Part shown: piece after piece, positions 1,478 through 39,883 of the stretch
How positions within the stretch are numbered: position 1 is the stretch's first letter
How the letters are laid out: every line of letters begins with the position of its first letter
From: Actinobacteria bacterium HGW-Actinobacteria-4
Lineage (GTDB): Bacteria; Actinomycetota; Actinomycetes; Actinomycetales; Demequinaceae
Direction of reading: 5' to 3'
NCBI GenBank assembly: GCA_002841315.1
Contig: PHEW01000003.1
Coordinates: forward strand, 310,001-374,000
Length of the DNA stretch: 64,000 nt
Made by a program: the position numbers and the translations under genes
Notes under the pieces: model-generated
Databases searched by the model: none
What the model was told of the DNA's origin: nothing
Seen by the model: the letters and a program-made list of their open reading frames with translations, nothing else

Positions 1478-4471
1478 ACCACGCGTGAGGTGTCTCTTGC
1501 GTCGCAGCTTCGCCGCGCCGGAGTGGCCGATGCCGAGCGCGCCGAGAAGCTCATCGCGGACATCGAGGCCGTCACGGGAGTGACGATAGACGATCCTGCC
1601 AACGCGGTGTCTTACCTCGCGGACCCTGACGGCGGGCTTCTGCAGTTGCTGCGATTGACCGAGGCCGCGAGGGACGCCGGCGTGCTTGACCAGCTGGTCG
1701 CGATGCGCGACACCAAGGCCGGCGCCAAGTTGGCAGTGTTGTTGGGCGGCTCCGTGGCGCTGGGAGACTTCCTGATCGCCCACCCGCACCTGATCGCGGA
1801 TTTCGCGGCATGGCCCGAGGGTCAGTCGTTTGCCGAGGTGGACGTGCGAGCCGCGCTGCTTGAAGCCGTGGGCGCAGACCCGTCCGCAGACGTTCCCGTC
1901 GCGACCGTCACCGGCGACGCAGGCGTCGCGGCGATGCGCGTGGCCTACCGACGTGAACTCGTCAGGGTCGCTGCCGACGATCTATTCGAAAGCACCCCCA
2001 CGCAACTGTTCCCCATGGTGTCATCCGCGTTGTCGGACTTGGCGGGAGCGGCGCTTGAGGCCGGGCTCGCGATCGCTCGAGCTTCGGAGCCCGAGCACGC
2101 GGCAACTCGCCTCGCAATCATCGGGATGGGCAAGTGCGGCGCGCGCGAACTCAACTACGTGTCAGATGTCGACGTCATCTATGTCGCGGAACCCAGCGAC
2201 GGCCATACCGAAGAGCAGTCCAATCGAGTCGCAACCCGGCTTGCCGTCGCCGCATCCAGGGCGTGCGACAAGGCCAACGTCGAGCCCGCGCTGTGGGAGG
2301 TCGACGCCGCGTTGCGTCCCGAGGGCAAGGACGGAGCCCTGGTGCGCAACCTTGCCTCACACCAGGCCTACTACGAACGGTGGGCCAGTACCTGGGAGTA
2401 TCAGGCGCTCCTCAAGGCGCGGGTCATCGCCGGGGACCGCGAAGTGGGCCTGCAGTACGAACAGGCCGTCGCGCCGCTGGTGTGGAGCGCCGTCGAGCGC
2501 GAGGGGTTTGTGGAATCGGCGCAAGCCATGCGCAAGCGTGTCGAGGATCACGTGCCTGCTCAGCAAAGCGAGCGCCAGCTCAAACTTGGCCCTGGCGGAT
2601 TGCGGGATGTCGAGTTCACCATCCAATTGCTACAACTGGTGCACGGCCGCTCTGACCCGAGCATTCGGTCGCGGACCACCCTCACAGCACTTGCTGCCCT
2701 GAGGGCTGGCGGCTACGTGGGGCGCACCCAAGCCGCGACCATGGACAAGTCGTACCGGCAGCTACGGGTGTGGGAGCATCGGCTGCAGTTGCGAAAACTG
2801 CGCCGCACGCACCTGATGCCAGAGGGGGCCGAGGACAAACAGTGGCTGGCACGCGCGTCCGGCTTTGCGACCTCGGAGTACATGGACGAGGTGTGGGCGG
2901 ACATCCGCCGTGACGTGCGTGCCATGCACCTCGAGATGTTCTACCGACCGATCCTCCCCGTCATGGCCCGCTTGAGCGCCGACGAGGCCTCGTTGGACGA
3001 CGACGCAGCGCGTGCGCGACTCAAGGCGGTCGGCTTCGAGGATCCGGCTGGCGCGCAGCGCCACATCGCGGCGCTCACCGAGGGCGTGTCACGCCGCGCG
3101 GCTATTCAGAGGCAGTTGCTGCCGGCCATGATCGGCTGGTTTGCGCAAGGCGCCGATCCCGATGCAGGCCTGCTTGCGTTCCGGCAACTTTCGGAGCAAC
3201 TCCAGGACACCCAGTGGTACCTCAAACTGCTACGCGATTCTCTCCATGCCGCCGAACGCCTAGCCCGGCTACTGTCAACGTCCGGCTTCGTGACCAAGGC
3301 GCTGCTGGCATCGGCCGAAGACGTGACGTGGCTTGACAAAGACGAAGACTTGTTGCCCCGAGACCCCGAGAGGCTATTCACTGAGGCCGACGCGATCCTC
3401 CGCAGGTCCGACGACGCCGAGCAGTGCATCACGGCGCTGCGAGGTCTGCGCCGGCGTGAAGTCGCGCGCGCAGCCGCCGCGGACGTGCTGGGCCTCATCG
3501 ATTCGGTGACGGCCGCGGAAACCGTGACGTCGGCAGCGGATGTGCTCATCGATGGCGCGCTACGCATCGCGCGGTGGGTGGTCGCTGCGGAGCACGCGCT
3601 CGATGAACTCCCGTTGCGCATGATCGTGGTCGCGATGGGTAGGTACGGCGGCCAAGAGATGGGCTATACGTCCGATGCTGACGTCCAGTTTGTGTACGAA
3701 GGCAAGGGGGACGAGGCGCACGGCCTTGCGCAGCAGGTGGCGACGGAACTGCGCCAGCTGCTCCAGCGCGTAGGCACTCAACCCCCGCTCGAGGTCGACG
3801 CCGGGCTGCGACCCGAGGGCAAGAACGGGCCCCTCGCGCGTTCCTTGACTTCCGCGACCGAGTACTACAGCCGGTGGTCTGACCCGTGGGAAGCACAGGC
3901 GCTATTGCGTGCACGCCCCATTGGCGGCGATGCCGACCTGCGCGAGCGCTTTGTCGCGATGATTGACGAAGTGCGCTACCCAGCGGAACTCACTCCTGCC
4001 GCACTGAAGCAAATGCGCACGCTCAAGGCGCGCATGGAGTCAGAGCGACTACCGCGTGGCGTCGACCCTCGCCGCCATGTGAAGTTGGGGCCCGGCGGAC
4101 TGTCCGATGTCGAGTGGACTGTTCAGCTGTTGCAGCTCCAGCACGGACGAGCGATTCCGGAGTTGCGCACTACCGTCACGCTGGATGCATTGCAGGCGGC
4201 AGGCGACGCACATCTGCTCGACGCCGCCCAGACCGCCGTGTTGAGCGAGGCCTGGCGGCTCGCAACCGACCTGCGAGGCGCGCTCGCGTTGCGTGGTAAG
4301 GGCGGCACCACGGATGTGATTCCGGCCGATGTCCGCGAACTCAAGTTCCTTGCGGAGATTATGGGAACCGACTACACGGGCGCACAATTGCTTGACACGT
4401 ATGAGCGCGCGGTGCGCCGGGCACGAGTGGTGACGGAGAAGGTCTTCTTTGGATGGGAGCAGGAACTCTGA
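1475..4471 (+). CDS. glnE: Bifunctional glutamine synthetase adenylyltransferase/deadenylase
   Basis: Adds and removes AMP on the regulatory Tyr of GlnA1 in response to nitrogen status. The 998-residue protein has the two-domain GlnE layout. An N-terminal nucleotidyltransferase motif GMGKCGARELNY...SDVD lies near residues 217-235 (deadenylase half). A C-terminal AMGRYGGQEMGYTSDAD motif lies near residues 719-737 (adenylylase half). Each is followed by a KLGPGGLxDVE segment typical of the family. Length matches other actinobacterial GlnE proteins. It follows glnA2 by 19 bp, and its stop codon overlaps the next start (TGATG at 4469-4473). Confidence 0.96.
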   Translation: MTTREVSLASQLRRAGVADAERAEKLIADIEAVTGVTIDDPANAVSYLADPDGGLLQLLRLTEAARDAGVLDQLVAMRDTKAGAKLAVLLGGSVALGDFLIAHPHLIADFAAWPEGQSFAEVDVRAALLEAVGADPSADVPVATVTGDAGVAAMRVAYRRELVRVAADDLFESTPTQLFPMVSSALSDLAGAALEAGLAIARASEPEHAATRLAIIGMGKCGARELNYVSDVDVIYVAEPSDGHTEEQSNRVATRLAVAASRACDKANVEPALWEVDAALRPEGKDGALVRNLASHQAYYERWASTWEYQALLKARVIAGDREVGLQYEQAVAPLVWSAVEREGFVESAQAMRKRVEDHVPAQQSERQLKLGPGGLRDVEFTIQLLQLVHGRSDPSIRSRTTLTALAALRAGGYVGRTQAATMDKSYRQLRVWEHRLQLRKLRRTHLMPEGAEDKQWLARASGFATSEYMDEVWADIRRDVRAMHLEMFYRPILPVMARLSADEASLDDDAARARLKAVGFEDPAGAQRHIAALTEGVSRRAAIQRQLLPAMIGWFAQGADPDAGLLAFRQLSEQLQDTQWYLKLLRDSLHAAERLARLLSTSGFVTKALLASAEDVTWLDKDEDLLPRDPERLFTEADAILRRSDDAEQCITALRGLRRREVARAAAADVLGLIDSVTAAETVTSAADVLIDGALRIARWVVAAEHALDELPLRMIVVAMGRYGGQEMGYTSDADVQFVYEGKGDEAHGLAQQVATELRQLLQRVGTQPPLEVDAGLRPEGKNGPLARSLTSATEYYSRWSDPWEAQALLRARPIGGDADLRERFVAMIDEVRYPAELTPAALKQMRTLKARMESERLPRGVDPRRHVKLGPGGLSDVEWTVQLLQLQHGRAIPELRTTVTLDALQAAGDAHLLDAAQTAVLSEAWRLATDLRGALALRGKGGTTDVIPADVRELKFLAEIMGTDYTGAQLLDTYERAVRRARVVTEKVFFGWEQEL

Positions 4472-5469
4472 TGAGAACGTTCAGGACGCTGGTATCGGCC
4501 CTGTCGATCTTCCTTGGCGCGCTGGCGATCGCACTGTGGGCCCTAGGCTGGGCGGCACTCTACGCGGTCGAGGACGGGGCGGTGTTCAAGGGAGTCGCGG
4601 AGCGGTCCTACGACAACCCCGCGTTCAAGGCCGCGATCACCGACGAGGCTCAGAGCGGCGTGCGCAACTACTTTGAGCGCCAGGGTGTCAATGTCGAGGC
4701 ACTCAGGCTGGGGGGAGCGCTTGATGCGTTAGTGGTCGTTGCAGTGGAGTCTGATGCCTTTCCCCGGCTTGTCGAGACGCAGGTGGACAGCGCGCGCGAG
4801 CAGTTCGTGGCCCAGCTCAAGGAACCTGACCGTCCGCCGGGCCCGCTCGTCATCATGGTGGACATCAGCGACGTCATCAACGAGCAGTTCGACAACGCGC
4901 CCCTGATCGGCGCCGCGCTTCCCACGGTGGTACTGCCGCCGGTCGCGGTTGAGGCGGTGAGCGAGGAGACCTTTGAGGACGCGCGGACGTCGTATCAGGT
5001 CGCCCAGTTCGCCCGCACATGGCTGTTGTGGGTGGGGCTAGCGCTGCTGGCGATCGGTCTCGCAGTGTCGCCCCGCCGCCGCTGGTTTGTGGCTAAGTTC
5101 CTGCTCGCGGTTGGCGCGATCGCCTTAGGCGCGTGGGCGCTCATGACGTTCGCCGAGCCAGCAACCGTCGCGGCATGGACCCCGGGGGGCGAGGGCGGTA
5201 CCGCAGGTGCGGTGATCGCGGAGGTGATGACCACGGAGACCTTCAGGTCCGTCGCGAACACGGTGCTGTGGATCGCGGTGGGGTTGCTCGCCGCTGCGGC
5301 GATCGCTGCGGCGCTGGCGTTTCAGGCGACGCAGCGCGGCAGTCAGCGCATGTTGATTGCGCGTACGGTGGCGAACGAGGATCCGCCGGTCGCAGTCATT
5401 GAACCCCCTGCGGGGTACGAACCTGATGGGGATTGGCAGCCGACGGGGCAGGACCGGAGCGGCTGGTAG
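4471..5469 (+). CDS. Hypothetical membrane protein downstream of glnE
   Basis: No family was recognised with confidence. The protein has an N-terminal membrane segment (about residues 6-32), an exposed stretch of about 150 residues, and three further hydrophobic segments (roughly 183-200, 205-228 and 265-287). It ends in a hydrophilic Pro- and Gly-rich tail. I chose ATG 4471, which overlaps the glnE stop and has a GGGAGCAGGA ribosome site 7-16 bases upstream. A start at 4453 inside glnE is possible but lacks such a site. The overlap implies co-translation with glnE; whether the function is linked to nitrogen control is unknown. Confidence 0.85.
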   Translation: MRTFRTLVSALSIFLGALAIALWALGWAALYAVEDGAVFKGVAERSYDNPAFKAAITDEAQSGVRNYFERQGVNVEALRLGGALDALVVVAVESDAFPRLVETQVDSAREQFVAQLKEPDRPPGPLVIMVDISDVINEQFDNAPLIGAALPTVVLPPVAVEAVSEETFEDARTSYQVAQFARTWLLWVGLALLAIGLAVSPRRRWFVAKFLLAVGAIALGAWALMTFAEPATVAAWTPGGEGGTAGAVIAEVMTTETFRSVANTVLWIAVGLLAAAAIAAALAFQATQRGSQRMLIARTVANEDPPVAVIEPPAGYEPDGDWQPTGQDRSGW

Positions 5470-36356: not shown

Positions 36357-37010
36357 TTGGACGTTGGCGTCCTCACCGTAGTCTGCTTGCTGCTCGGAGT
36401 CCTCGCGATCCGTGCCGGCGCTCGTGCGCTCTCGAAGCGGAACGAGTCTGAGGGGCGGGCGGGACGCGCGTGGTGGGCGGTCGTGGTGATGGTTGCCGGG
36501 TTGACAGCGTGGTTTGTCGAGGCGAGTCATCAGCAGCGACAGTTCTTGACGTCCGACGCGCTATCCGTGCTGACAGAAAACCCCGACGCGCGCGCCAACT
36601 GCAAGCGATTCACTGAGTCGCTCCTTGATACCAGCCAGTTCGATGGCTTCGTGTACTGGGACAACCTGGGCGTCGCACACTTCAAGGGGCACATCTGCAA
36701 GGACCTTGCGGCGTATGCGCGCGGCGGACAGGCCAACCCCACGCTGGATCAAGTGGCTGCAGTGGTGCTCGTCGCGCATGAGTCTCAGCACATGCTCAAC
36801 ATCCGCAGCGAGTCGGTTGCCGAGTGCAATGCGGTTCAGGACGCGCATAAGGTCGCCATGCACCTAGGTGCCACGATGGAACAGGCGTTGGCGCTGCAGG
36901 CGAGGTACTTCGTGGAGATCTATCCGCATCAGCGATCCGAGTACGTCTCGCGGGAGTGTCGCGAGGGGGGTTCCCTCGACATCTACCCTGATCGCACCGA
37001 GTTCCCCTAG
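36357..37010 (+). CDS. Membrane-anchored putative HExxH metalloprotease
   Basis: Unknown 217-residue protein. Two N-terminal membrane helices (about 4-20 and 39-56) are followed by an exposed domain with the zincin motif HESQH (His141, Glu142, His145) and a downstream acidic cluster SESVAEC (Glu152 or Glu156 as possible third ligand). Four cysteines (82, 114, 157, 201) could form disulfides. The start is uncertain; TTG 36357 after GGAAGGGGG is the best upstream choice. A peptidase role is inference from the motif only. Confidence 0.65.
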   Translation: MDVGVLTVVCLLLGVLAIRAGARALSKRNESEGRAGRAWWAVVVMVAGLTAWFVEASHQQRQFLTSDALSVLTENPDARANCKRFTESLLDTSQFDGFVYWDNLGVAHFKGHICKDLAAYARGGQANPTLDQVAAVVLVAHESQHMLNIRSESVAECNAVQDAHKVAMHLGATMEQALALQARYFVEIYPHQRSEYVSRECREGGSLDIYPDRTEFP

Positions 37011-37023
37011 GCCGCGCGCCCCA

Positions 37024-37061
37024 TTGACTTTGATTCGAACATGTGTTCGACTAGGTAGATG
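37024..37061 (+). promoter_or_regulatory. SOS (LexA) box and promoter of the radical SAM gene
   Basis: TCGAACATGTGTTCGA at 37035-37050 is a perfect 16-bp match to the actinobacterial LexA box TCGAAC-N4-GTTCGA. TTGACT at 37024-37029 (-35) and TCGACT at 37047-37052 (-10, 17-bp spacer) flank or overlap it. ATG 37059 is six bases after the -10, so the transcript is probably leaderless and LexA would cover the promoter. Confidence 0.85.
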
Positions 37062-38141
37062 CGATGGAACGCCCAGGACATCAGCGTCGAGACCAGCAAC
37101 GCTCTCCCAGGCCTCGCGCGGCTCGCCACCTTGGTTCGCAGTGTTCAGACGCCAGGTTTTGAAGGGATCACCTTTCACGAGGTCCTTGCCAAGAGTGCGC
37201 TCAACAAGGTGCACAACAGTTCGATGCCCTTTGGGTGGACCATCAACCCCTACCGAGGCTGCAGCCACGCGTGCGTCTATTGCTTTGCGCGCTCGTCCCA
37301 CACGTACCTCAACCTCGACGCCGGCGTGGACTTCGACAGTCAGATCGTCGTCAAGGTCAATGTGGCTGAGGTCCTTGCCAAGGAACTCGCCAAGCGCAGC
37401 TGGACCCGAGAGCCTGTGGCCCTTGGCACCAACACCGATCCCTACCAGCGAGCAGAAGGCAAGTATCAGCTGATGCCAGGGGTCATCGATGCGCTTGCTG
37501 CGGCCGACACCCCGTTCAGCATCCTTACTAAGGGCACGCTGCTCAGGCGAGACGTGCCTCAACTGGTGAGGGCAAGCGAGCGCGTCTCGGTTGATGTGGC
37601 GATGTCTATTGCGGTGTTTGACAATGACCTCCAGCAGTCGATCGAACCCGGCACGCCCACAACGGCCGCGCGCCTCGCGACAGTGCGTGCCGCGAGCGAG
37701 GCCGGACTCGAGGTTGCGGTGTTCATGATGCCGATCCTGCCGTTTCTTACCGACACCGAGGAGCACCTGGACCGCGCGCTCACCCAGGTGGCCGCAGCGG
37801 GCGCGACGTCGGTGACCTACAGTGCGCTCCACCTGCGCCCGGGAATCAAAGAGTGGTACGCGGCGTGGCTCGCTCGAGCACGCCCGGACTTGATTCCCCG
37901 TTACCGTGACCTCTATGGAGCGGAGTCGAACGCGCCCCGCGAATACCGGCGTTGGTTGGCTGCGCGCATGAAGCCACTCATCGACAAGCATGGGCTGAGG
38001 CGCGTACCGGAGGATCCCTCCGTGGGCGGGGTGTTGAGTAATGCAGTGCCTCGCGTCAGTGCGCGCGACGACAACGGGGAGTGGCGACGGGACGGCTACG
38101 GCTCGCGATCGAGCCCTGAACTCGCGCCCACCCTTTTCTAG
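37059..38141 (+). CDS. SOS-regulated radical SAM protein (Rv2578c/SplB-like)
   Basis: Radical SAM enzyme related to spore photoproduct lyase. 360 residues with the cluster motif Cys68-x3-Cys72-x2-Cys75 in GCSHACVYCFAR, preceded by NPYRGC. ALGTNTDPYQRAE and SILTKGTLLRRD follow the family pattern of Rv2578c-type proteins. A perfect LexA box lies in its promoter, so expression on DNA damage is expected and a DNA-repair role is plausible. The exact substrate is unknown. The next gene starts 27 bp downstream. Confidence 0.92.
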   Translation: MRWNAQDISVETSNALPGLARLATLVRSVQTPGFEGITFHEVLAKSALNKVHNSSMPFGWTINPYRGCSHACVYCFARSSHTYLNLDAGVDFDSQIVVKVNVAEVLAKELAKRSWTREPVALGTNTDPYQRAEGKYQLMPGVIDALAAADTPFSILTKGTLLRRDVPQLVRASERVSVDVAMSIAVFDNDLQQSIEPGTPTTAARLATVRAASEAGLEVAVFMMPILPFLTDTEEHLDRALTQVAAAGATSVTYSALHLRPGIKEWYAAWLARARPDLIPRYRDLYGAESNAPREYRRWLAARMKPLIDKHGLRRVPEDPSVGGVLSNAVPRVSARDDNGEWRRDGYGSRSSPELAPTLF

Positions 38142-38168
38142 CGGGTTGCTACCAGTAAGAATGGAGGG

Positions 38169-38756
38169 GTGGCGACGGTCAACCTCTATTGGATTCCGCT
38201 TGGCGCGGGCGGGAACGGGTTCGTTCGCACCAACGGGAGGCTCTACGAGGCGCTCGCCGCGCGGCGAGATCGACGAACACCCCTTGCGCTCTATCACAGT
38301 GCCCTCACGGTGGAGCTCGAGGGTCACGCATTCGTGATCGAGAATGCATGGCCCAGCCCTGACGCCGACACTTCGTCGCGCGGTGTTGTGGTGGAAGGTC
38401 CGGTATTCGCTACCTGGGCGAGCCGTTGGCGAGCGTTTCGCTACGAGGTGCGATGTTGGGAAGGTGGCGAGATTCCAGACATCGGTCATGCCGTTGGCGG
38501 GCCGTGTGTGGTGTCTCGAGATCCCGCGTTGGCCGAGAGGATTCTCGCCTCTGCGCCATCGGTGCCCGCCTTGCGGTGGGGGAGGGTGGTGCCGGGAACG
38601 GCGGACATGTGGAACTCAAACTCGACCATCGCTTGGTTGCTCTCGGTCTGTGGCGTGCAGAGCGACGCGCTAAGGCCCCCGCCTCAGGGCCGGGCACCAG
38701 GGTGGGAGGCGGGTCTGACGGTTGCGCTTCGCGCCCACGTGGCAGCAGGGGACTAA
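38169..38756 (+). CDS. Conserved hypothetical protein
   Basis: A 195-residue soluble protein. The opening VNLYWIPLGAGGNGFVRTNGR looks like a conserved actinobacterial family that I know only as hypothetical. WNSNSTIAWLL near residues 147-157 is another conserved-looking stretch, and a cysteine lies just after it. GTG 38169 has AAGAAT six bases upstream and GGAGGG abutting the start. It follows the SOS-regulated radical SAM gene by 27 bp and could share its transcript, but has its own possible -10. Confidence 0.8.
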   Translation: MATVNLYWIPLGAGGNGFVRTNGRLYEALAARRDRRTPLALYHSALTVELEGHAFVIENAWPSPDADTSSRGVVVEGPVFATWASRWRAFRYEVRCWEGGEIPDIGHAVGGPCVVSRDPALAERILASAPSVPALRWGRVVPGTADMWNSNSTIAWLLSVCGVQSDALRPPPQGRAPGWEAGLTVALRAHVAAGD

Positions 38757-38797
38757 GGTCACTGTGGGTGGACGTACGATAGAGCGAGAATTAGATG

Positions 38798-38822
38798 GAT
38801 ATCGAATTACTCTCGCGAGGAG
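38798..38822 (+). promoter_or_regulatory. Dyad and ribosome site deciding the permease start
   Basis: GATATC at 38798-38803 centres an imperfect dyad in an A/T-rich stretch (about 38790-38809). GAGGAG at 38817-38822 lies 11 bases before ATG 38834. This favours translation from 38834 rather than from the ATG at 38795 inside the dyad. The dyad might bind an ArsR-type repressor; inference. Confidence 0.4.
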
Positions 38823-38833
38823 CACGACCCGAC

Positions 38834-39883
38834 ATGACACTGGTTGACCACGTACCCCGAACTCGACGGCGGATTGGCCTGGTTCTCGCCGGAGGGGCGG
38901 CCGTGTGGGTCGCCGCGTACATCGTCAACGAGAACGTCTGGGATGGGGTGTTTCACGGAGCGCTCGGCCTCGCGCCCCATGCCCCAGTGACTGAGTCCAT
39001 TCACTTCTTCTTCTACGACACCGCGAAGATCGCGTTGCTCCTGATCGGAATCATCTTTGTGGTGACCTTGCTGAGGTCCTTCATGAGCGTCGAGCGCACG
39101 CGCGCGCTGCTTGGCGGCAAGCGCGAGGGTGTGGGCAACGTCATGGCTGCGGGCCTTGGTGGCGTGACACCGTTCTGTTCGTGTAGCGCGGTACCTGCGT
39201 TCATCGGCTTCGTGTCAGCGGGTGTTCCCATCGGCGTCACACTCAGCTTCCTCATCGCGAGTCCATTGGTAAGCGAGATCGCCGTAGGCATGCTGTGGGT
39301 GATGTTCGGATGGGAGATCGCGCTCCTTTATGTGGCCGCTGGCCTCGCGGTGGCCATCGTCGCCGGTTGGGTGCTGGGCCGCATGCGTGTCGAGAGGTGG
39401 GTTGAGCCGTTCGTGTTCCAGGTCACCTTGCACGGCGAAGTGGTTGACATGACCGCGGGCCTGACGCTCCAGCAGCGTGTGCAGATCGCGCTCAGTGAAG
39501 TCGGCACAGTCATCGGCAAGATTTGGCCGTACCTGCTGGTCGGCGTAGGCCTTGGCGCGATCATCCATGGCTGGGTCCCGGCGGACTTCTTTGCGACCAA
39601 TGCCGGCGCGGACAACCCGTTAGGGGTGGTCGTTGCGGTCGGCACGGGTGTGCCCCTGTACTCGAATGCCGCCGGGATCATGCCGTTGGTCGAAGTGCTG
39701 TTCGACAAGGGCCTGCCCATGGGCACCCTACTTGCGTTCATGATGAGCGTAGTCGCGCTGTCGATACCCGAGATGATCCTGCTGAAGCGTGTGTTGAAGA
39801 TTCAGCTCGTCGGAATCTTCGCGGGGGTGGTCGCTGTCGCCATCATCGGGGTTGGTTATCTGTTCAACATGGTCCTCGCATAG
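38834..39883 (+). CDS. Permease of the ArsP/DUF318 family (PF03773)
   Basis: Integral membrane permease with about eight to ten helices. The family motif TPFCSCSAVPAFIGF carries the conserved Cys pair, and VPLYSNAAGIMPLVE is the mirrored motif of the second half. Relatives export organoarsenicals or have unknown substrates. I chose ATG 38834 (349 residues) from the GAGGAG site; 38795 is the alternative. The thioredoxin-like gene follows by 32 bp, a common pairing that suggests thiol or metalloid chemistry. Confidence 0.9.
   Translation: MTLVDHVPRTRRRIGLVLAGGAAVWVAAYIVNENVWDGVFHGALGLAPHAPVTESIHFFFYDTAKIALLLIGIIFVVTLLRSFMSVERTRALLGGKREGVGNVMAAGLGGVTPFCSCSAVPAFIGFVSAGVPIGVTLSFLIASPLVSEIAVGMLWVMFGWEIALLYVAAGLAVAIVAGWVLGRMRVERWVEPFVFQVTLHGEVVDMTAGLTLQQRVQIALSEVGTVIGKIWPYLLVGVGLGAIIHGWVPADFFATNAGADNPLGVVVAVGTGVPLYSNAAGIMPLVEVLFDKGLPMGTLLAFMMSVVALSIPEMILLKRVLKIQLVGIFAGVVAVAIIGVGYLFNMVLA

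Follow-up and report, generated by a model that had tools for sequence, protein, structure and literature searches.

The control of SplB-like radical SAM genes by the SOS response has already been published and hence is not a new finding (PMC9380542, PMC7739468, PMC8565304). In Streptomyces venezuelae, the radical SAM gene vnz_31145, which has been likened to radical SAM repair enzymes, is reported to be 19.97-fold up upon mitomycin C treatment and to have a LexA ChIP peak (PMC9380542). A radical SAM protein has likewise been placed within the core Gram-positive SOS regulon by an analysis that included M. tuberculosis (PMC7739468), and SplB (COG1533) is presented as part of the Bacteroidetes SOS network and as SOS-regulated in 'several species' (PMC8565304). 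A 'DNA repair photolyase' appears among the RecA-dependent mitomycin genes of M. tuberculosis (PMC8151990), although identity with Rv2578c is not implied, and UVC induces a gene of the spore photoproduct lyase (SPL) family in Curtobacterium (PMC12029717) that is not equated with the Rv2578c family. Within Streptomyces, the prophage Samy integrates in a gene of the Rv2578c family; its authors see no significant fitness cost for the interrupted orthologue of S. ambofaciens ATCC 23877, doubt the SplB label and call the link to DNA repair speculative (PMC12924846).

The open-access literature that we found contains no paper naming a substrate of this gene, and the suggestion of an earlier note on this DNA that its chemistry is uncharacterised is borne out to that extent. 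Nor did we find there any paper on a clamp motif in such radical SAM enzymes. While the SOS reading is known in kind, the new point here is a conserved C-terminal tail of clamp-binding type in two SOS-controlled subfamilies, those of Rv2578c and PA0069. The locus through which we approached these subfamilies lies in the window, by which we mean the whole 64,000-nucleotide stretch of DNA that was analysed. Its features are as follows:

37024-37029, + strand: -35-like element TTGACT (TTGAC in 34 of 44 own-family promoters)
37035-37050, + strand: LexA operator TCGAACATGTGTTCGA, lying between the -35-like and -10-like elements and overlapping the latter
37047-37052, + strand: -10-like element TCGACT (TCGAAT in 41 of 44 own-family loci)
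37059-38141, + strand: Rv2578c family radical SAM protein of 360 aa (NCBIfam NF038135, Pfam PF04055)
37260-37283, + strand: codons of the C68-x3-C72-x2-C75 iron-sulphur cluster motif, invariant among 47 aligned proteins
37998-38123, + strand: variable C-terminal linker, about residues 314-355 (from the alignment; residues from about 321 on are modelled with low confidence)
38124-38138, + strand: APTLF, a degenerate form of the clamp-binding-type motif (relatives have QPTLF, QLTLL or QLSLF)

The operator agrees with the consensus TCGAAC-N4-GTTCGA at 12 of 12 positions, as the earlier note had stated, and it is the sole perfect match in the window. Matches with up to two mismatches number six against 3.1 expected, and these degenerate sites are therefore treated as noise. 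The arrangement of the box between and over the two promoter elements ahead of the ATG at 37059 was also confirmed, with a 17-bp spacer separating TTGACT from TCGACT and eight bases separating the box from the start codon. Because the -10-like element ends only six bases before the ATG, transcription probably begins on the start codon itself, which would make the mRNA leaderless. Most relatives outside one family (f25, discussed below) have a similar promoter layout, which leaves little room for a leader with a ribosome-binding site. A strict sigma-70 scan did not call the -10-like TCGACT and reported no promoter, a scan for terminators found no terminator-like site, and an Rfam search of positions 36500-39000 matched no RNA element.

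Elsewhere in the 2.52-Mb draft genome of the host, perfect 12/12 sites are found at two more places, ahead of the imuA'-imuB-dnaE2 cassette (L002, L229) and of uvrA (L003), so that the radical SAM gene is one of three. Among the sites with one mismatch are those ahead of recA (L005), lexA (L006, with three close sites) and ruvA (L051), the last at C6:238765 within the ruvC-ruvA gap. These genes were identified by HMM matches, ImuB only through its IMS domain and its position in the cassette. The genome also has dnaN, and it lacks a match to PF11799 (IMS_C) at an E value of 0.001 and hence a canonical DinB by that model. No countable clamp-binding motif was seen in the host ImuB and DnaE2 that were examined.

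Raw counts of the 14-base core of the box across the genome show no enrichment, with nine sites against nine for a reversed control pattern, and the case for the operator therefore lies in its position and its conservation. The radical SAM gene occurs in 44 of the 47 genomes of the host's own family, and in every one of these a 12/12 box lies no more than five bases from -24, whereas the best of 880 mononucleotide shuffles of these regions scored 10/12. In 16 other families of the class, 43 of 46 loci hold a box of at least 10/12 between -300 and +60, a score attained by 0.65% of mononucleotide shuffles, and in 40 of the 46 the box starts at -29 to -20. Of the 180 matching genomes outside the own family, the sample covered 70, namely 30 whose loci the search returned and 40 chosen for family diversity and blind to their upstream DNA. 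Loci L098 and L038 come from one genome, which enters the LexA-box and uniform tail counts once. Despite the equal raw counts, a chance occurrence of the box is ruled out by this conservation among orthologues, which upholds the proposal of LexA control in the earlier note as far as operator sequences can speak for regulation. Rv2578c itself presumably belongs to the LexA regulon of M. tuberculosis, an assumption that carries no weight as evidence here. The gene is nonetheless dispensable, since 212 of the 393 genomes of the class yielded no match to it.

The 24 loci of f25 differ in having the box mostly near -46 with a leader, and mostly in the form GGGAAC-N4-GTTCTA. Their 12-position score is mostly 9, which by itself does not rise above shuffles (10% reach at least 9), and GAAC-N4-GTTC is kept in 21 of the 24. 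We infer that this family is Streptomyces; a Streptomyces copy (L233) looks alike. The S. venezuelae gene vnz_31145 is a probable orthologue of the Rv2578c family. Its published SOS box, TCGACCGTTCGCTC, is placed at -61 (PMC9380542), in contrast to the GGGAAC-N4-GTTCTA-like site at about -46 in most f25 loci (L063 and L073, for example), and the published assignment may thus be off if the gene is indeed an orthologue.

A second subfamily, that of PA0069, seems to have kept this regulation while its operator changed, to judge from the patterns ahead of its genes. The LexA operators of the alphaproteobacterial lineage have the form GTTC-N7-GTTC and those of the gamma- and betaproteobacterial lineages CTGT-N8-ACAG. 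Of the 28 alphaproteobacterial loci, 24 have the former within 250 bases upstream and none has the latter; of the 36 gamma/beta loci, 24 have the latter over that distance and none has the former. In background windows, the two patterns occur in 1 of 270 and 0 of 349, respectively. An exact box within 250 bases is absent from the remaining 12 gamma/beta and four alphaproteobacterial loci, and none of seven Xanthomonadales loci showed any of the LexA patterns tried over that distance. Lineage groups were assigned by hand on the basis of record titles, with nine of the 80 loci left unplaced (five having CTGT-N8-ACAG and three GTTC-N7-GTTC). These loci, mostly from Pseudomonadota, are the best 80 of at least 595 confirmed, and they lean towards relatives of the first sequence.

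The product of the gene in the window belongs to the Rv2578c family, scoring 499.9 bits with NF038135 (rSAM_Rv2578c) against a cut-off of 430 and covering positions 1-316 of the 317 in the model. It shares the N-terminus MRW with its Rv2578c relatives. The CxxxCxxC cluster proposed in the earlier note stands as C68-x3-C72-x2-C75, set in a YRGC context in which R66, G67 and the three cysteines are invariant among 47 sequences. With NF033668 (rSAM_PA0069), the protein scores 231.1 bits, under the cut-off of 360. An AF2 model built from those 47 sequences has a mean pLDDT of 85, falling to blocks of 44-57 from about residue 321. Foldseek places six SPL entries on top (E 1e-10 to 6e-10), and by VIA the SPL entries reach Z scores of 20.9-21.3 with an rmsd of 3.1-4.4 over 264-282 aligned residues, compared with 16.6 for lipoyl synthase and 16.1 for PFL activase.

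We believe that the strongest clue to function, overlooked in the earlier note, lies beyond the conserved domain. Most members of both subfamilies have a hypervariable linker followed by an end of the form Q-x-x-L-F/L, a region that the 317-position NF038135 model excludes. With a uniform pattern, Q..[LIM][FLIMW] within the last 12 residues, a match is found in 64 of 109 Rv2578c-family proteins and in 72 of 80 PA0069-family proteins, the latter from the best 80 of at least 595 loci. Within the Rv2578c family, the matches comprise 8 of 39 distinct proteins of the host's own family, all 24 of f25 and 32 of 46 from other families. As a control, the pattern was applied to 467 non-overlapping open reading frames of 150 codons or more from these loci; six match, and since two of the six (L208, L215) are the target gene, the figure becomes 4 of 465. 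A tighter pattern matches 105 of 174 target frames and none of the 1138 other frames with 200 codons or more. The control frames are mechanical open reading frames, some of which are surely not genes, and the control for the tighter pattern also omits frames with C...C..C. Two other patterns were applied as well: Q..[LIM][FLIMV] with no more than four residues after it, and one with a narrower second position that gave 63 of 80 for PA0069. The count with the first of these dropped the five of 115 loci that lack a complete gene, one at a contig end (L090) and four interrupted (L094-L097).

Sequences that escape the uniform pattern often resemble it. Where the Q is missing from an own-family protein, the last two hydrophobic residues are mostly still there (31 of 40 rows, with one genome counted twice). 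The eight non-matching PA0069 tails are near variants by eye (e.g. QLSFF, QLNLEL), and one of these proteins (L150) has QLTLW just beyond the 12-residue limit. Homologues encoded on plasmids from other phyla end in GDQLSLF (Paracoccus), VQLSLL (Sinorhizobium), GDQLTMF (Azospirillum), GQLDLFAGIV (Legionella adelaidensis) or SAQLSLGI (Gemmatirosa). In Nostoc, Halopiger and Staphylococcus, distant relatives encoded on plasmids have tails without the motif, and the tag is thus not general to all SplB-like proteins. The protein in the window ends in ELAPTLF, having lost the Q as most own-family members have, and for this reason a tether to the clamp is least certain for this very protein.

For comparison, in E. 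coli, Pol II ends in GQLGLF, DinB ends in RQLVLGL and UmuC contains QLNLF; these motifs bind the beta clamp, with the consensus QL[SD]LF. It is by resemblance to this consensus that we propose clamp binding for the radical SAM enzymes. A beta-clamp-binding motif is also described for mycobacterial ImuB (PMC3901139).

Taken together, these findings lead us to favour, as the probable explanation, an SOS-induced radical SAM DNA-repair enzyme that is delivered by the sliding clamp. Without damage, LexA would sit on the operator between the -35 and -10 elements and block the promoter; the sequence gives this geometry, from which binding and the start site are predicted. On damage, RecA-triggered cleavage of LexA should free the gene along with imuA'-imuB-dnaE2, uvrA, recA, lexA and ruvA, to judge from their boxes. 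The product, which is modelled with an SPL-like fold, would carry a [4Fe-4S] cluster and SAM and direct a 5'-deoxyadenosyl radical at a damaged base. In most relatives outside the host's own family, a probably disordered tail might then dock on DnaN and so bring the enzyme to lesions at stalled or gapped forks. The substrate is probably something other than the spore photoproduct, for example another base-base cross-link or a saturated base.

An unlikely alternative is that the C-terminus has nothing to do with the clamp and is a degradation tag through which ClpXP or another protease removes the enzyme once the SOS response is over. Short lifetimes are common among SOS proteins, the motif is terminal or nearly so and follows a linker modelled with low confidence, and the loss of the Q in most own-family proteins, with the last two hydrophobic residues kept, would suit such a tag. 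However, the pattern Q-L-[S/D/T]-L-F is that of the E. coli proteins Pol II and UmuC (DinB has QLVLGL), and it is common to two subfamilies in different phyla. Moreover, some proteins have residues beyond the motif, as in QLDLFAGIV (L143) and QMDLFDPVL (L208), which an end tag would tolerate poorly.

We also regard it as improbable that the enzyme acts on RNA, a component of the nucleotide pool or a protein, with LexA control reflecting a general stress response. Such substrates are brought to mind by the core fold, which lipoyl synthase, PFL activase, NifB and RlmN have as well (Z 14.8-16.6), and a DNA substrate would not follow from a modelled fold in common with SPL. The tolerance of the Streptomyces orthologue as a prophage site points the same way (PMC12924846). 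On the other hand, SPL gives the better fit with its N-terminal part included (about residues 19-323), LexA operators of three different types precede such genes, and the tail motif would direct the protein to the replication clamp. SplB-like genes are also described in operons with ImuB-C domains (PMC3765255).

Given the likeness in fold, it is reasonable to ask whether the enzyme is an ordinary SPL that repairs 5-thyminyl-5,6-dihydrothymine through a Cys/Tyr radical relay. The earlier note had called the protein SplB-type, and this holds for the fold, with SPL nearest among solved structures and also the top match in a sequence-profile search of the PDB (E 0.0069). It does not hold for the family, however, since the protein scores 13.6 bits with the SPL-family model TIGR03886 against a cut-off of 437.55, and no further SPL model matches at an E value of 0.1. 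In the profile alignment, the position of the SPL relay tyrosine, Tyr98 in the numbering of the PDB titles, falls on Phe76, which is invariant in the 47-protein alignment and which among 110 proteins is F in 99 and L in 11, the L rows being probably those interrupted by an intein. Only the three cluster cysteines are invariant in the 47 proteins, with no fourth; for the catalytic cysteine of SPL (Cys140), the nearest candidate position is Pro128, onto which hhalign puts the SPL-family Cys149. Among 110 proteins the residue at this position is Pro 73 times, Cys 35 times and unread twice. Fifteen SPL-family proteins, taken from 19 genomes above the cut-off among 148 of the class, provide a further comparison: none has a box of at least 10/12 near its start, none has the tail motif, and all end in YAF. 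The model score and the Phe at the relay-tyrosine position rule out a true SPL as the family, and a role as an ordinary SPL is thus very unlikely. The modelled scaffold may be SPL-like, and SPL chemistry does not follow from it. The tail motif, too, sets the Rv2578c and PA0069 group apart from true SPL, with which annotations confuse them.

The idea that the 195-residue protein encoded next downstream is a functional partner can be dismissed as extremely improbable: the 27-bp gap was confirmed and the frame follows on the same strand with no terminator-like site, but the protein has no Pfam or NCBIfam domain, tblastn gave no match to it in the sequence flanking the radical SAM gene at any of the 114 other loci (112 of the 115 hold at least 600 bases downstream), and relatives occur in only 3 of 43 other genomes of the genus (G002, G011, G016), in each case about 200 kb or more away from that gene. 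This absence of linkage overturns the partnership suggested in the earlier note, and the bases directly 3' of the radical SAM gene vary widely among relatives.

Several observations concern the gene as a site of insertion. Inserts of about 8.7 kb (L096, G014) and 9.4 kb (L094, G020) split it between Cys72 and Cys75. Each carries a large serine recombinase (PF00239) on the same strand and near the host promoter, the two being 45% identical (L096 2498-4512; L094, reverse complement, 3296-5328). The first possible start of the recombinase lies 65 and 32 bp past the truncated N-terminal frame, or 290 and 257 bp past the start codon of the gene, in L096 and L094, respectively. By this layout, the elements may put their recombinase under the LexA-controlled promoter of the host. 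In two loci of the host's own genus (L095, G025; L097, G040), about 0.5-0.6 kb interrupts the gene close to the codons of the cluster, and in L095 translation stops after 79 codons although an open frame across the break was reported. At a further locus (L098, G043, 1677-2464), an intact copy of the gene is preceded by an N-terminal fragment of 74 aa that has a perfect LexA box to itself. The fragment lies 772 bp upstream of the intact copy's box and is perhaps a relic of integration. Longer stop-free matches suggest inteins in the gene of several families (e.g. G153, G221, G273, G053, G090), and NCBI keeps a separate model, NF038136, for an intein form. A phage origin was considered and dropped, since distant matches were seen in seven phage records and none covers 80% of the query. 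Finally, on a Staphylococcus saprophyticus plasmid (L148, 799-3624), a distant radical SAM relative adjoins genes for a 2OG-Fe(II) oxygenase, a DNA glycosylase and an Ada-domain protein, which is another DNA-repair setting.

Returning to the clamp-delivered repair enzyme that we favour, a broader proposal is that the Rv2578c and PA0069 families form one class across phyla, induced by the SOS response, tethered to the beta clamp and devoted to a light-independent radical reversal of a base lesion at stalled forks. We offer this proposal tentatively and stop short of endorsing it. In at least two bacterial phyla, the gene stands behind a LexA operator of the type used in its lineage, and most sampled members keep a clamp-type tag. 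If the tag works, the enzyme would meet lesions at the fork, and the search for its substrate would narrow from any radical SAM chemistry to a base lesion that blocks polymerases. If the proposal as a whole is true, the SOS response would have an arm of direct reversal beside translesion synthesis.

Among known systems, SPL (SplB; PDB 4fhc, 4fhf and 4k9r) is the nearest solved fold to our model at a Z score of about 21, yet it has only about 16% identity to the protein in the window. The PA0069 family shares the NPYRGC-H-C-YC-AR core with that protein, and its members have LexA boxes particular to their lineages and a C-terminal motif of similar kind. It differs in its N-terminus and its LexA operators and has about 30% identity to the window protein. 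A further parallel comes from archaea, where SplB-like genes adjoin that of NreB and Nre proteins carry PCNA-binding motifs, in an account that leaves the substrate unspecified (PMC4929162). There, the link to the clamp resides in the neighbouring protein and concerns PCNA.
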